Shown here in pieces: positions 3,351 through 20,928 of a stretch of 64,000 bases of DNA. Under the pieces are notes generated by a model that made no database searches, was not told where the DNA came from, and worked only from the letters and a program-made list of their open reading frames with translations. A program made the position numbers and the translations under genes. This DNA comes from Gemmatimonadota bacterium (GTDB taxonomy: Bacteria > Gemmatimonadota > Gemmatimonadetes > Gemmatimonadales > Gemmatimonadaceae), in the NCBI GenBank assembly GCA_016871855.1, contig VHBQ01000005.1:1-64000 (forward strand), given 5' to 3'. The number at the start of each line of letters is the position of its first letter. Within the stretch, counting starts at the first letter, position 1.

Positions 3351-3389
3351 CGAGAAAACACTCCGGTTCGGGACGCCTAATTGTACGGA

Positions 3390-3417
3390 ACCCCCCGGGC
3401 GTTGCCACCCGGGGGGT
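3390..3417. terminator. strong GC hairpin between two minus-strand genes
   Basis: Ten-base perfect arms (ACCCCCCGGG and CCCGGGGGGT) around an eight-base loop. It lies after the stop of the porin gene (3491) and before the epimerase start (3350), where the cytochrome/porin transcript should end. The T-run after the stem is poor on both strands. Confidence 0.55.
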
Positions 3418-3490
3418 CCTCGTCCTTACCTTCTCCGTCGCTGAACCAGCCGTCAGGAGCACCTGGCTCCGCGACGGTCCAGCGATGCCT

Positions 3491-5800
3491 CTAGAACTTG
3501 AACGTCAGGCGCGCGTACACGAGGTTCGCGTCGTAGGCGCCGAACAGCGGCTTCGTGAAGATGTTCACCGCCGACGGGAGCAGCTTGTTCGTGGCGTTGA
3601 ACGCGTCCTTGAAGTCGTACTTCTCGAACATGTACCCCGTCGCAAACGACCACGCCTTGTTCAGCGTCCAGTCGAGCTGCGCCGACAGCGTCGTGAGGTT
3701 GCTGTCGTCCCAGTCGATGATGTCGGCCGCACCGCCCTGTCCCGCCGGGATCAGGCCCGCGCGTCCGGGCGTGTAGAACGAGCCGGCCTCGCGCGCCGTC
3801 ACGTCCATCAGGCCGTCCATCTCGTGGTTCATCGCGCTGAGCGTCAACGTCCCCTTGTCGGGCACGACCTGGAACACGGCGTTGACCCCGTACGTGCTCA
3901 GTTCGTCGGTCTGCGCGTACCGAAGCGAGTTGTTCAGCGTCGCGGCGGTGCCGCTGCCGCTGGTGGTGTGCCACTGGTTCGCCTGCACGTCCTTCTCGTA
4001 CGTGTAATACGCGCTCAACTCAAGCCGCGTAGTGGGCGTGTAGCTGACCTCGCCCGTGTACGTGTCATAGTCGTTGAACAGCAGGCCGCTGGGCGTGTTC
4101 GGGAACGGCACGAAGCCGGGGACGGGCACGCCGCTGGCCACGGCCACGCGGTTCGGGCGCTCCACGAAATCCACTTCCTTGCGGAAGTAGCCGAACGTCA
4201 TTTCCAGGCCGGGCGCCGGGGAGAGATCGACATGCACGCCCGTCTTGGTCGCCTCGAAGGCTGCCTCATCTGCCTGGAACCCGTAGATGGTGTGGCCATC
4301 GGCGGTGCGCTTGCTCACATCATACGTGCCGCGCAGTCCCAGCCAGTCGTTGAAGTGGTAGACGGCGGTGAGCACGTAGGCGCTCTCGGTTCCCTTCTCC
4401 GCCTCGCGGCTGGTCCGCTCCAGCTGGCCACCGCGTACCTGCCCTTCGATGGTGAACGCCTTGTAGTCGTACGCCGCCGACGCCGAGTAGCGCGAGCTCT
4501 TGGTGTCATAGCGGTTCGCCGTCAGGTGCCCATAGGGGGCGTCCGCCGAGGCCGTCACCGCGCCCCACACCGAGTTGCTTCCCGACACGTCGCCGGTGAT
4601 CACGTACTTGTCCGACTTGTCCTGCAGGTCGTACATGCGGTACTGCGCCCGCAGCGTCAGCCCTTCCATGGGCCGCGAGGCGAACGACAGGTTGTACATC
4701 ATCGTGTTGATCTTGCCGCCGTACGACTTGCGCTGCAGCGCCGCGTAGCTCGCCGCGTTCTGCCCCGCCGCCGTGTTGAGCGCGGTGTTGGCGGTGTACG
4801 GATAGAACGGCGCGTCCTGCGTCAGCGTGGCCATGGACAGGCTGCCGTTGATCCGCGTCTGCTTCGCCAGCTTGAGCAGGAACCCCGCCTTGGCCGTGCT
4901 GGCCTCGTTGTCCGGCGCCATCACGAACCGCTCGCGCGAGAGCCCGCCGATCGCCACGGGCGACGCGATGTACGTCTGGTCCGCCGCCTGGAACGGGAAG
5001 TCCATCATCAGCGTCTCGGCCTGGTTGTCGAACAGGTTGCGGTTGAACGACGCCCAGACATTGCCCTTCGCGAAATTCTTCGCCGCGCGGATGCCGATGT
5101 CATGCGTGATCTCGTCGAGCGGATTCAGCGCCTCGACCGACATGTTCACGCGCTCGCGGAAGTTCACCGCGGCCAGCCCGCGATAGCCTTCCTTCATCTC
5201 ATTGCGGTACGACAGCTTCACATCAAGCGGCAGGTGGTCGCCAAGATCCAGTTCCACCGACCCCGTCTTGCGCACGCCGGTGATGTCCACGCGATTCGCC
5301 GAGTTGAACACCGGGGCCAGCAGCGCGTCGTAGAAGTTGTAGTTCCGCGCCGACGTCGGCAGCGTCGCATCGACGGTCGTCTGCAGGACGCGCTGCGTGT
5401 AGTCCGACATCTGCCACACGCCCGGCGCCGTCTCGTTGTAGATGAGCCGGGCATCGTTCCCCATGTTGTGGGGAGTCTGGTTGTAGTCGAACTTCACCCC
5501 GAAGCCCATCGCCTTCGCCCAGCCGAAGTAGCGCTGGTTGGTCTGCTGCACGTTCTGGCCGGTCAGGTTGAAGTCAATCTTCCCGCCCGACGACCAGAGG
5601 TTCACCTGCGGCAGGGACACGCCGTTCGGGAGCTCGCGGTATTCCGTGAACTTGCCCGATTCGACGTCTTCCACGCCCATGGTGCGGAGCGTGATGGAGC
5701 CACCGCTGGTGACCGTCGGCGCCTTCTGCGCCGTCACCGTGCTCGCCGCCAGGAGGAGCCCCATGGCGACGAACGCTGAAATCTTCATTGCGCGTGTCAT
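3491..5800 (-). CDS. MtrB/PioB-family outer-membrane beta-barrel
   Basis: A 769-residue secreted protein. The signal peptide ends near residue 24 (STVTAQ). The rest is an alternating aromatic/polar barrel pattern ending in LTFKF, the terminal phenylalanine recognised for outer-membrane assembly. Length, N-terminal composition and position right after a decaheme cytochrome gene identify it as the porin of an MtrAB/PioAB-type conduit. In that family the barrel sheathes the periplasmic cytochrome and lets electrons cross the outer membrane. I see no cysteine, so the CxxC seen in some MtrB proteins is absent. Only six bases separate it from the cytochrome stop; the two are surely cotranscribed. 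No surface cytochrome (MtrC-like) is in the window. Confidence 0.85.
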   Translation of the reverse strand: MTRAMKISAFVAMGLLLAASTVTAQKAPTVTSGGSITLRTMGVEDVESGKFTEYRELPNGVSLPQVNLWSSGGKIDFNLTGQNVQQTNQRYFGWAKAMGFGVKFDYNQTPHNMGNDARLIYNETAPGVWQMSDYTQRVLQTTVDATLPTSARNYNFYDALLAPVFNSANRVDITGVRKTGSVELDLGDHLPLDVKLSYRNEMKEGYRGLAAVNFRERVNMSVEALNPLDEITHDIGIRAAKNFAKGNVWASFNRNLFDNQAETLMMDFPFQAADQTYIASPVAIGGLSRERFVMAPDNEASTAKAGFLLKLAKQTRINGSLSMATLTQDAPFYPYTANTALNTAAGQNAASYAALQRKSYGGKINTMMYNLSFASRPMEGLTLRAQYRMYDLQDKSDKYVITGDVSGSNSVWGAVTASADAPYGHLTANRYDTKSSRYSASAAYDYKAFTIEGQVRGGQLERTSREAEKGTESAYVLTAVYHFNDWLGLRGTYDVSKRTADGHTIYGFQADEAAFEATKTGVHVDLSPAPGLEMTFGYFRKEVDFVERPNRVAVASGVPVPGFVPFPNTPSGLLFNDYDTYTGEVSYTPTTRLELSAYYTYEKDVQANQWHTTSGSGTAATLNNSLRYAQTDELSTYGVNAVFQVVPDKGTLTLSAMNHEMDGLMDVTAREAGSFYTPGRAGLIPAGQGGAADIIDWDDSNLTTLSAQLDWTLNKAWSFATGYMFEKYDFKDAFNATNKLLPSAVNIFTKPLFGAYDANLVYARLTFKF

Positions 5801-5806
5801 GGGTGA

Positions 5807-6733
5807 TTACCTCGTGAAGTAGGCGCCCGAGGGCGAGTTGGAGCCGTGGATGTTGATGTGGCAGTTCATGCACGAGCGCCCGACGAACCGCGAGTTCACC
5901 GTCGGATAGCCGGACGGGGAACCCGTCGGCGCGATCGGTACACCCTTCTCGGTCGAGTAGTTGTCGCCCGACCCGAAATGCCCGGAGCCCGTGAGGTGGC
6001 AGTTCCAGCACAGCGTCGGCGCCTTCTGCGTCAGCATGCGGTTGTGATTGGAACCGTGCGCATCGTGGCACGCAATGCAATCTTCGCGGACCGGCGCATG
6101 CTCAAAGAGGAACGGTCCGCGCTTCTCGGTGTGGCAGGAGTAGCACAGTTCCGTCACCGACTCGCCCTTGATCATCTTGGGCGTGGTGCCTTCATGCGCG
6201 TTGTGGCAGCTCGAGCAGCTCATCTTCCCCTCGCGCACGGGATGCCGCGACGGGCGGAGCGACTTGGCGCGCTCGGTCTTGTGGCATGAGAAGCAGAGGT
6301 CGGTCTCACGCTTGGTCTTGAGCGAGCCCGCCATCGACTTCGGCGCATGCACGCTGTGGCAGCTCGCGCAGGACACGTTGCGCCGCGCGTGCGTCCCGCT
6401 CATGTAGCTCGCCTGGTTCTCCGTCTCGTGGCAGGACAGGCAGGCGGCGTTCAGGTCTGCCGCCTTCACCTTGTTCACTGAAGGCACCGGCCCGTCCTTG
6501 CCCTCCGACTGCGCCTTGAGGTGCTCCGCCACGTTGTTGTGGCAACTCGCGCACGACTGACTGATCTTGGCGTGCGCGGACTTGTTGAACGCCGGGGAGA
6601 GCGCCTTGTCGTGGCAGCTCTCGCAATCCGACGCCGTCCACGATGCCTGGGCGTTCGCTGACGCGATCGCGCCCGATCCCGCAAGCAAGGCGATGAACCC
6701 TGCCAGCATCGTGGCCAACCTGAGGTGACGCAT
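5807..6733 (-). CDS. decaheme c-type cytochrome, MtrA/PioA/DmsE family
   Basis: A 308-residue periplasmic protein with a signal peptide (cleavage near residue 28) and exactly ten CxxCH motifs: CESCH at 37-41, then CASCH, CLSCH, CASCH, CFSCH, CSSCH, CYSCH, CIACH, CWNCH and CMNCH. Ten hemes in about 300 residues is the MtrA/DmsE layout, a molecular wire threaded into the MtrB-type barrel encoded next. Additional histidines between the motifs fit bis-histidine heme ligation. The ATG is well supported by GGAGG seven bases upstream. Direction of flow (respiration outward, or oxidation of an extracellular donor as in PioAB) cannot be told from sequence. Confidence 0.92.
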   Translation of the reverse strand: MRHLRLATMLAGFIALLAGSGAIASANAQASWTASDCESCHDKALSPAFNKSAHAKISQSCASCHNNVAEHLKAQSEGKDGPVPSVNKVKAADLNAACLSCHETENQASYMSGTHARRNVSCASCHSVHAPKSMAGSLKTKRETDLCFSCHKTERAKSLRPSRHPVREGKMSCSSCHNAHEGTTPKMIKGESVTELCYSCHTEKRGPFLFEHAPVREDCIACHDAHGSNHNRMLTQKAPTLCWNCHLTGSGHFGSGDNYSTEKGVPIAPTGSPSGYPTVNSRFVGRSCMNCHINIHGSNSPSGAYFTR

Positions 6734-7344: not shown

Positions 7345-9552
<2,208 letters not shown>

Positions 9553-11378: not shown

Positions 11379-11422
11379 CTGTTGTTTCTCTGTTGTCTCT
11401 CTGTTGTCTCTCTGTTGTTTCT
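11379..11422. repeat. four 11-bp tandem units at the glnA 3' end
   Basis: Units of CTGTTGTYTCT occupy 11379-11389, 11390-11400, 11401-11411 and 11412-11422. The glnA stop codon (11424-11422 on the minus strand) lies at one edge, and the frame of the methyltransferase runs through the array toward its uncertain start. Confidence 0.75.
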
Positions 11423-12873
11423 CAGTATTTGGCCAAGTACTGCGCCAACTCCCACTCGCTAACCTGCGTCACGTATTCCCGCCACTCTTGGCGCTTCGCG
11501 TCAAGGAAATGCCGCGTGACGTGCTCGCCCAGCGCTGTGCAGACGACCTTGTCCTTCTCAAGTTCGTCGCACGCCTCGTTGAGGTCGTGCGGCAGGTCGT
11601 CGATGCGAAGCCGCCGCTTCTCGCGGAAGCTCATCTCCCAGATGTTCTCATCTACCGGTTCGCGACTCGAGGCCTGCGTCTCGATGCCGTCGAGACCGGC
11701 GGCCAGCATGACGGCGAGGGCGAGGTACGGGTTCGCGCTCGGATCGGGCGACCGCAGCTCCACCCGGGTGCCCGTGCCACGCCGTGCGGGAATGCGGATG
11801 AGCGGTGAGCGGTTGCGCATGGACCACGCCACGTTCACCGGCGCCTCGAACCCGGGCACGAGCCGCTTGTATGAGTTCACCAGCGGATTCGTGATCGCAC
11901 TCATGCCCCGTGCGTGCTGCAGCAGGCCGCCGATGTAGTGGTGCGCCACGGCGGACAGCTCAAACGCCCCCTTGGGATCGAAGAAGGCGTTCTGTCCGCC
12001 CTTGAACAGCGACTGGTGCGTGTGCATGCCGCTGCCGTTCTGCCCGTAGATCGGCTTGGGCATGAAGGACGCGTGCATGCCGAACTGCGCGGCGACATTG
12101 CGCACGACAAACCGAAACGTCGCCAGGGCGTCGGCGGTGGTGAGCGCGTCGGCATAGCGGAAGTCGATCTCGTGCTGGCCGTGCGCCACTTCGTGATGGG
12201 CGGCCTCGATCTCGAAGCCCATCTGCTCCAGCGCATCCACGATGGCGCGTCGCGCATCCTCGCCGAGATCCACCGGTCCAAGGTCGAAATACGATCCGGT
12301 GTCGTGCGTCGTGGTGGTGGGCGCGCCATCGGGACCCAAGCGAAACAGGAAGAACTCCGCTTCCATCCCGGCGAACATCGTGTAGCCCAGCGCCGCGGCA
12401 CGCGCCACCTGCCCCTTGAGCACTCCGCGCGGATCGCCGGCGAAGGGATCGCCGTCGGGCGACGTGATGTCGCAGATCAGCCGTGCTACCCGGGCGCCCG
12501 TATCGCTCCACGGGAAGATGCGGAAGGTCTCAAGATCCGGGCGCAGCAGCATGTCGCTCTCTTCCACCCGCACGAATCCTTCAATCGACGAGCCGTCGAA
12601 GAGGATGTCGCCATCGAGGGCCTTGCGCAGCTGCGAGGTGGGAATCTCGACGTTCTTGTTGACGCCCAGAATGTCGGTGAACTGCAGGCGAACGAAGCGC
12701 ACGTGGTGCCGCTCGACGATCTCAATGAGATCCTTGGCGGTCACACCTCGCAGGTCGCTCAGCAGGGCGCGGGAGGAAGCGGTCACGGCACGTCCGGCAG
12801 GGGGTTCTTCCGGGGCGGGACGATCGAAAACCCCGGGGGTGTGGAGTCTGTGCTCCGACGGGCGCATTGGCAA
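11422..12873 (-). CDS. glnA: type I glutamine synthetase, GSI-alpha subtype
   Basis: A 483-residue enzyme with all GSI landmarks: N-terminal RFVRLQFTDILGVNKNVEIP, the DGSSIEGF loop, MEAEFFLF and HHEVAHGQHEIDFRYADA metal ligands, NGSGMHTHQSLF, and NRSPLIRIPARRGTGTRVELR for ATP/glutamate. EGFVRVEESDM contains the arginine typical of feedback-regulated GSI-alpha. The adenylylation tyrosine motif (NLYDLP-like) is replaced by ENIWEMS, so control by GlnE-type adenylylation is not expected. The first about 30 residues are proline-rich and extra; starts are possible at TTG 12873, ATG 12867 or GTG 12786, none with a clear SD. GSI normally starts near the GVTAKDLIEIV segment. Confidence 0.93.
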   Translation of the reverse strand: MPMRPSEHRLHTPGVFDRPAPEEPPAGRAVTASSRALLSDLRGVTAKDLIEIVERHHVRFVRLQFTDILGVNKNVEIPTSQLRKALDGDILFDGSSIEGFVRVEESDMLLRPDLETFRIFPWSDTGARVARLICDITSPDGDPFAGDPRGVLKGQVARAAALGYTMFAGMEAEFFLFRLGPDGAPTTTTHDTGSYFDLGPVDLGEDARRAIVDALEQMGFEIEAAHHEVAHGQHEIDFRYADALTTADALATFRFVVRNVAAQFGMHASFMPKPIYGQNGSGMHTHQSLFKGGQNAFFDPKGAFELSAVAHHYIGGLLQHARGMSAITNPLVNSYKRLVPGFEAPVNVAWSMRNRSPLIRIPARRGTGTRVELRSPDPSANPYLALAVMLAAGLDGIETQASSREPVDENIWEMSFREKRRLRIDDLPHDLNEACDELEKDKVVCTALGEHVTRHFLDAKRQEWREYVTQVSEWELAQYLAKY

Positions 12874-20220: not shown

Positions 20221-20928
20221 ATGCTGAGCGGCGATCTCAACGACATGCGCATGGCGGACCGGGAGGAAGATCCGGAAGACGGCGGATTCGGTGGCGGCAT
20301 GAGCTATGACGACGAGGACGACGAGGATGGCGGCTGGGCGATCAACAAGGACCACTCCGACTCGCTGTGGGACAGCGCGGAGGATTCGGAGGAGGAAGAC
20401 GAGGAAGAGCCGGGAGCCCTGATGGACGCCGGTGAGGAGGAGGACGATGCCGATCTGTTCGGCGCCGGGCTCTCCGAACCCCGCCGTGCATCGAAGGCGA
20501 AGGCGGCTCCCGCCGCTCCAGCGCCCGCCCCCGCAGCCGCTCCCAAGCCTGCAGCCGCCAAGCCCGCAGCTGCTAAGCCGGCCGCTAAGCCGGCCGCTAA
20601 GCCGGCCGCTAAGCCGGCCGCTAAGCCGGCCGCTAAGCCGGCCGCTAAGCCGGCCGCTAAGCCGGCCGCCAAGCCGACTCCTAAGAAGGCGGTGAAGAAG
20701 GCCGCGCCTAAGAAGGCCGCCAAGAAGCCGGCGAAGAAGGCGGCATCGAAGAAGGTGGCGAAGAAGCCGGCCAAGAAGGCTGCCCCGAAGAAGGCAGCCA
20801 AGAAGCCAGCGAAGAAGGCCGCCCCCAAGAAGGCCGCCAAGAAGCCGGCGAAGAAGGCCGCCCCCAAGAAGGCCGCCAAGAAGCCGGCGCCGAAGAAGGT
20901 CGCCAAGAAGGCGAAGAACAAGAAGTAA
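20221..20928 (+). CDS. histone-H1-like protein: acidic N-terminus, Ala/Lys/Pro-rich C-terminus
   Basis: A 235-residue protein from the ATG at 20221, chosen because GGAGG lies six bases upstream; an in-frame ATG at 20209 precedes that SD. The first about 80 residues are strongly acidic and glycine-containing (DDEDDEDGG, EEEDEEEPG). From about residue 95 the sequence is alanine/proline/lysine only, first AAKP repeats, then KKAAPKKAAKKPAK-type units to the KAKNKK end. The basic tail resembles eukaryotic H1 tails and bacterial H1-like/AlgP-like nucleoid proteins, so DNA or RNA binding is likely. The acidic head could mask the tail or recruit partners; that is inference. A strong hairpin terminator follows. 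Confidence 0.8.
   Translation: MLSGDLNDMRMADREEDPEDGGFGGGMSYDDEDDEDGGWAINKDHSDSLWDSAEDSEEEDEEEPGALMDAGEEEDDADLFGAGLSEPRRASKAKAAPAAPAPAPAAAPKPAAAKPAAAKPAAKPAAKPAAKPAAKPAAKPAAKPAAKPAAKPTPKKAVKKAAPKKAAKKPAKKAASKKVAKKPAKKAAPKKAAKKPAKKAAPKKAAKKPAKKAAPKKAAKKPAPKKVAKKAKNKK
20569..20676 (+). repeat. 12-bp in-frame tandem repeat encoding AAKP
   Basis: Seven exact copies of GCCGCTAAGCCG occupy 20581-20664, flanked by one diverged copy on each side (20569-20580 and 20665-20676). Each encodes Ala-Ala-Lys-Pro. The exactness at DNA level, in contrast to varied codons elsewhere in the tail, points to recent slippage expansion. Confidence 0.95.

Follow-up and report, generated by a model that had tools for sequence, protein, structure and literature searches.

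The window, i.e. the whole stretch of 64,000 nucleotides analysed here, carries on its minus strand a gene pair for a periplasmic decaheme c-type cytochrome and an outer-membrane beta-barrel, whose identity as an MtrAB-type electron conduit is supported by sequence, predicted fold and the concordant trees of the two proteins. The sequences and structural models suggest that this uncultured bacterium can exchange electrons with materials outside the cell. Taken as a whole, the observations are probably best explained by a conduit within a chain from quinol to the outside, running most likely in the outward, reductive direction. This amounts to a genus-wide, well-supported case for extracellular electron exchange in the Gemmatimonadota, a phylum for which we found few in silico reports.

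A decaheme cytochrome and a barrel protein encoded as a pair

The mtrA-like gene (positions 5807 to 6733, minus strand) encodes 308 amino acids with a signal-peptide-like N-terminus and exactly ten CXXCH motifs. The protein scores above the curated cut-off of TIGR03508, the model for MtrA/DmsE family decaheme cytochromes (226.9 versus 192.2 bits), and matches the sequence of 6r2q_A with an E-value of 3.4e-48, the homology spanning 260 residues. Candidate distal histidines at positions 54, 71, 115, 180, 212, 226, 252 and 296 are kept in at least 44 of 48 homologues. Modelled alone, the cytochrome gave a moderate-confidence model (pLDDT 71), for which 6r2q_A was the sole significant Foldseek match (E 1.2e-13, TM 0.61). 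By its sequence the window cytochrome is a member of the MtrA/DmsE family, and an MtrA fold is predicted for it. Its closest named relative comes from ZH-Oct18-98 (66%), one of the Gemmatimonadetes MAGs that provide the nearest named sequences, in agreement with the presumed origin of the DNA. A search of plasmids for homologues returned one distant match from Photobacterium only.

The mtrB-like gene (positions 3491 to 5800, minus strand) encodes 769 amino acids with a signal-peptide-like N-terminus and the C-terminal residues KF. A C-terminal phenylalanine is typical of outer-membrane proteins. The score against PF11854, which covers MtrB/PioB barrels, exceeds the Pfam gathering score (152.5 versus 23 bits). 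With the NCBI model TIGR03509 for MtrB/PioB decaheme-associated outer-membrane proteins, however, only 96.5 bits were reached against a curated cut-off of 240.05, so that by this score the window barrel is far from canonical MtrB; the two other barrels of the genome (see below) also remain under this cut-off, with 168 and 185 bits. Because of this low score, and because phmmer with the MtrB sequence found no PDB relative, the identity of the barrel would be doubtful from sequence alone. Its fold was considered as well, using AlphaFold2 with a 40-row homologue alignment and counting strands from the DSSP string. The resulting model (mean pLDDT 80.6, pTM 0.75) has 26 long strands, connected by short turns at one end of the barrel and mostly by long loops at the other, and a predicted extracellular loop with two helices at residues 133 to 166. 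The solved Shewanella MtrB likewise has 26 strands (PMC7198977). In a Foldseek search against the PDB the top match was 6r2q_B (E 5.3e-32; TM 0.85 by target length), and the second-best match was weaker by 22 orders of magnitude.

The pair thus resembles Shewanella MtrAB (6r2q, chains A and B) in that genes for a decaheme cytochrome and a 26-strand barrel are adjacent and that these chains are the best structural matches of both products. Unlike the Shewanella Mtr system, the window pair comes without MtrC, and its MtrB is only about 15% identical to the Shewanella protein in the structural alignment and contains no cysteine. A more distant likeness exists to GSU2203/GSU2204 of Geobacter: MtrA matches the family model NF041028 (219.9 bits) and MtrB weakly NF041027 (43.1 bits). 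Both window proteins, however, remain below the respective cut-offs of 325 and 350 bits, and the window barrel lacks a CXXCH motif. The absence of the cysteine pair found in some MtrB proteins had been pointed out as a peculiarity of the barrel. The protein indeed has no cysteine at all, but this is not a special trait, as 54 of 111 MtrB homologues are likewise devoid of cysteine after residue 30. A CXXC near the N-terminus occurs among these 111 only at loci L049, L053 and L054, whose MtrA proteins cluster with that of Shewanella in the tree.

Genomic context

Between the stop codon of mtrA and the start codon of mtrB lie 6 bp (positions 5801 to 5806, minus strand), and we read the two genes as one unit transcribed in the same direction. 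The original prediction of a two-gene unit for a ten-heme cytochrome and an MtrB-like porin at 3491 to 6733 is therefore exact in its coordinates and is borne out by the ten CXXCH motifs, the short gap and the family cut-offs passed. Just 3' of mtrB, at approximately 3380 to 3420 of the minus strand, a GC-rich hairpin, CCCCCCGGGTGGCAACGCCCGGGGGG, was found by eye; it is likely a transcription terminator, although a consensus terminator scan did not list it. Epimerase and symporter genes flank the pair on one side and a divergent type III glutamine synthetase gene on the other. Within the genus, mtrAB keeps one chromosomal place, next to type III glutamine synthetase, methyltransferase and glnA genes (genomes G065 and G115). 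Beyond mtrA, no second multiheme gene is present within the 64 kb of the window, and an Rfam scan of the window gave no matches.

Two features of the surroundings may be recorded in their own right. Two unlike glutamine synthetases, one of type III and one glnA-type, are encoded near mtrAB (window positions 7345 to 9552 and 11422 to 12873), and their order is kept in G065 and G115. Further away, positions 20554 to 20912 consist of tandem repeats coding for Lys, Ala and Pro with units of 12, 15, 27, 36 and 39 bp; the corresponding protein of 239 amino acids has no Pfam match and a histone-H1-like composition.

A divergent lineage among three mtrAB pairs

The window is part of a MAG of 2.99 Mb that is 85.6% complete and contains three mtrAB pairs, on contigs C5 (the window), C6 and C37. 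Additional multiheme genes of this genome were located by family and pattern searches, the latter of which miss widely spaced motifs. In our sample of the phylum, MtrA proteins above the cut-off occur in 25 of 298 genomes, with at least one in each of the nine members of the genus. In the trees of both proteins the three pairs fall into separate lineages. Eight window-type loci, identical for MtrA and MtrB, make up a single clade each time (SH-aLRT 100); the C37-type pair is nested among Acidobacteriota, and the C6-type pair belongs to a clade shared with Desulfobulbaceae, Ignavibacteria and Acidobacteriota. The stem of the window-type barrel clade is long, at 1.25 changes per column, and these barrels are 17 to 24% identical to those of the other lineages in the alignment. 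The MtrA tree took in Shewanella MtrA as its reference and provides the Shewanella part of the cytochrome phylogeny called for with the original prediction: unlike Shewanella MtrA, the window type lies outside the mostly gamma- and betaproteobacterial clade that holds this protein (SH-aLRT 99). Where the window-type stem attaches to the deep lineages of MtrA varies between tree runs.

The first trees looked as if window-type mtrAB were confined to Gemmatimonadota. This was refuted by one genome (G450) among 297 Acidobacteriota searched, which has a window-type pair with 59% and 50% identity and no multiheme neighbour at this locus. Judged by sequence comparison, window mtrAB is a divergent, stand-alone lineage present in Gemmatimonadota and one Acidobacteriota genome. 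Independently of this, tandem mtrAB-mtrAB arrays were observed, combining a window-type and a C37-type pair in one case (L162 in G231) and two C37-type pairs in another (L156 in G175).

The long stem of the barrel clade and the low scores of the barrel against MtrB models could also mean that the window pair is a divergent or decaying copy without electron transfer, the work being done by the C6 and C37 pairs. We regard this as very improbable, since the ten-heme frame is intact, the distal histidines are conserved, the 26-strand barrel is complete in the AlphaFold2 model and the intact pair is kept in several genera as well as, at the identities given above, in the Acidobacteriota genome. With three pairs in the genome, each inherited separately, the question of acceptor specialisation arises. 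Tentatively, one may think of a distinct conduit lineage of Gemmatimonadota and some Acidobacteriota without surface cytochrome or co-encoded inner-membrane partner, in which the diverged barrel, with its loop at 133 to 166, would set its own extracellular partner, and up to three separately inherited wires per genus would serve different acceptors.

Mtr-type genes had been reported from Gemmatimonadota before, and so had conduits that lack MtrC. MtrCAB has been described for the MAG of Gemmatimonas sp. SG8_38_2 (PMC8805035), homologues of CbcL and ImcH for Gemmatimonadetes (PMC6295460) and genes for iron cycling for MAGs of Gemmatimonadota (PMC8478452); clusters of decaheme and porin genes together with ImcH or NapC-type cytochromes have been published as well (PMC13264449). 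Extracellular electron exchange is therefore a less unexpected capacity for this phylum than initially thought. New here are the divergent stand-alone lineage, the occurrence of three pairs of separate inheritance in a single genome and the linkage to candidate partners.

Surface cytochromes

In contrast to MtrCAB systems, no OmcA/MtrC-family protein is encoded near the window pair, and none exceeds the family cut-off in any of 11 genomes from the genus, of which seven are at least 90% complete. As a positive control, the same model gave 454 bits for an MtrC-like neighbour at locus L055. A match to TIGR03507 in the genome was rejected as MtrC, as it is one weak fragment of 23 bits overlapping the C6 pentaheme gene. 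Furthermore, besides the pair itself, no gene with at least three CXXCH motifs was found near window-type mtrAB at nine loci. The predicted lack of a surface cytochrome is therefore supported by sequence searches as far as the OmcA/MtrC family is concerned, and surface cytochromes of other families may still be encoded.

Most of the mtrAB loci surveyed from Acidobacteriota, Gemmatimonadota and Desulfobulbaceae likewise have no extra gene with at least three CXXCH motifs nearby, whereas an 8- to 10-heme neighbour is present at many proteobacterial loci. This survey indicates that MtrC-less mtrAB is common outside Proteobacteria, where it often lies beside a gene for an ImcH-like quinol oxidase, and screens that require MtrC will thus miss such organisms. 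Electrons can cross membranes via MtrAB alone, and MtrC mutants still reduce soluble Fe(III) (PMC4245776, PMC7198977).

Candidate inner-membrane partners and the direction of electron flow

Contig C3 carries side by side genes for an ImcH-like protein, a c554-type tetraheme cytochrome and proteins with 13 and 19 hemes. The ImcH-like protein contains a NapC/NirT domain and has three N-terminal transmembrane helices followed by six CXXCH motifs, the helix-then-heme layout described for ImcH (PMC6295460). The 13-heme and 19-heme proteins have C-terminal membrane helices in a CbcL-like layout, and the former matches a cytochrome b561-type domain. A search for partners of the pair thus yielded no MtrC/OmcA candidate above cut-off, but it did yield ImcH-like and CbcL-like ones, and the description of mtrAB as a minimal module, if taken to mean one without partners, is too strong.

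In G016, orthologues of the 4-, 13- and 19-heme genes (59, 66 and 75% identity) lie beside an mtrAB pair, and at the Acidobacteriota loci L022, L030 and L065 mtrAB has an ImcH-like homologue as its neighbour. A homologue of the 19-heme protein is present in 17 of the 25 genomes with MtrA, compared with 34 of the remaining 273 (Fisher odds ratio 15). As relatedness is not corrected for and modules of the C3 type are also found in Gemmatimonadota that lack MtrA, this association is supporting rather than decisive. Because none of the nine window-type loci has a multiheme neighbour, the partners of the window pair were assigned by analogy to other mtrAB lineages and are to be seen as candidates. 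The MtrC-less pairs of Acidobacteriota and other Gemmatimonadota are alike in lacking an adjoining surface cytochrome, and several of them adjoin an ImcH-like cytochrome; the window type differs by having no adjoining partner and by its distant MtrB. Group 2 PCCs with ImcH or NapC/NirT-type cytochromes (PMC13264449) look similar to such MtrC-less pairs. The locus in G016, a genome of the same family, has mtrAB near ImcH-like, tetraheme, 13-heme and 19-heme genes (L164, 4788 to 16032) and is in itself a candidate for a complete quinol-to-surface chain and would suit experiments better than the window pair.

A quinol-to-outside chain made up of the ImcH-like and CbcL-like proteins and mtrAB is plausible from these gene contents. 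In such a chain, electrons would pass from quinol to the ImcH-like and/or CbcL-like inner-membrane multiheme cytochromes of contig C3, from there to the periplasmic c554-type tetraheme carrier and then through MtrA/MtrB to an extracellular acceptor, e.g. Fe(III) or humics. The analysis shows the predicted folds and family membership, the gene content, the pairing of the two proteins, their phylogeny and, in relatives, the linkage of homologous partner genes to mtrAB; from these we infer the formation of an MtrA-MtrB complex, the partners of this one of the three pairs, the direction of electron flow and the substrate.

Electrons might also run inward, as in MtoAB or PioAB, from Fe(II) or reduced minerals to the periplasm, which would amount to aerobic or mixotrophic Fe(II) oxidation. 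Decaheme/barrel pairs without MtrC are typical of PioAB from Rhodopseudomonas palustris TIE-1 and MtoAB from Sideroxydans lithotrophicus ES-1 (PMC5566968), and Fe(II) oxidisers have CbcL/MtoC-type proteins (PMC6295460), of which CbcL-like ones are encoded here; CbcL-type proteins are tied to both directions of electron flow (PMC6295460). However, no PioC/MtoD-like gene was seen adjoining the pair, and the unit lacks the third gene of PioABC, which encodes the HiPIP PioC. RuBisCO was not found in the 11 genus genomes, nor a photosystem II-type reaction centre (PF00124) in this 85.6% complete genome, which argues against Fe(II) oxidation, be it lithoautotrophic or phototrophic. PioAB-type photoferrotrophy was rejected on these three absences, and the initial label PioAB-type is not supported. 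Furthermore, ImcH has been implicated in quinol oxidation only (PMC6295460); an ImcH-like protein is present here, with homologues next to mtrAB in relatives. Inward flow therefore appears unlikely, and the missing reaction centre and RuBisCO together with the ImcH-like protein favour outward flow.

A possible role with a dedicated terminal reductase

Rather than minerals, the pair could serve an extracellular terminal reductase of its own, much as DmsEF serves DmsAB, or the detoxification of soluble oxyanions. TIGR03508, whose cut-off is exceeded, is a DmsE-family model, and clusters of molybdopterin-type and NrfD-type oxidoreductases lie near an ExtM-like 11-heme protein on contig C24. This contig is, however, separate from the window, its cytochrome reaches 246 bits against an ExtM cut-off of 800, and no molybdoenzyme or reductase gene was recognised adjoining the window pair, the neighbours in relatives being partly annotated. 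We thus consider such a role improbable, and a conduit to external acceptors such as Fe(III) or humics remains the preferred reading.

The C24 cluster itself (L101, 2112 to 9792) comprises molybdopterin-oxidoreductase-like, FeS-like and NrfD-like genes, named by eye, YeeE-like and rhodanese-like genes and the ExtM-related 11-heme cytochrome; respiration of sulfur compounds or of selenite/tellurite is a possible function. In addition, contig C62 encodes an NrfH-NrfA pair, i.e. an ammonia-forming nitrite reductase (L019, 8154 to 10095).
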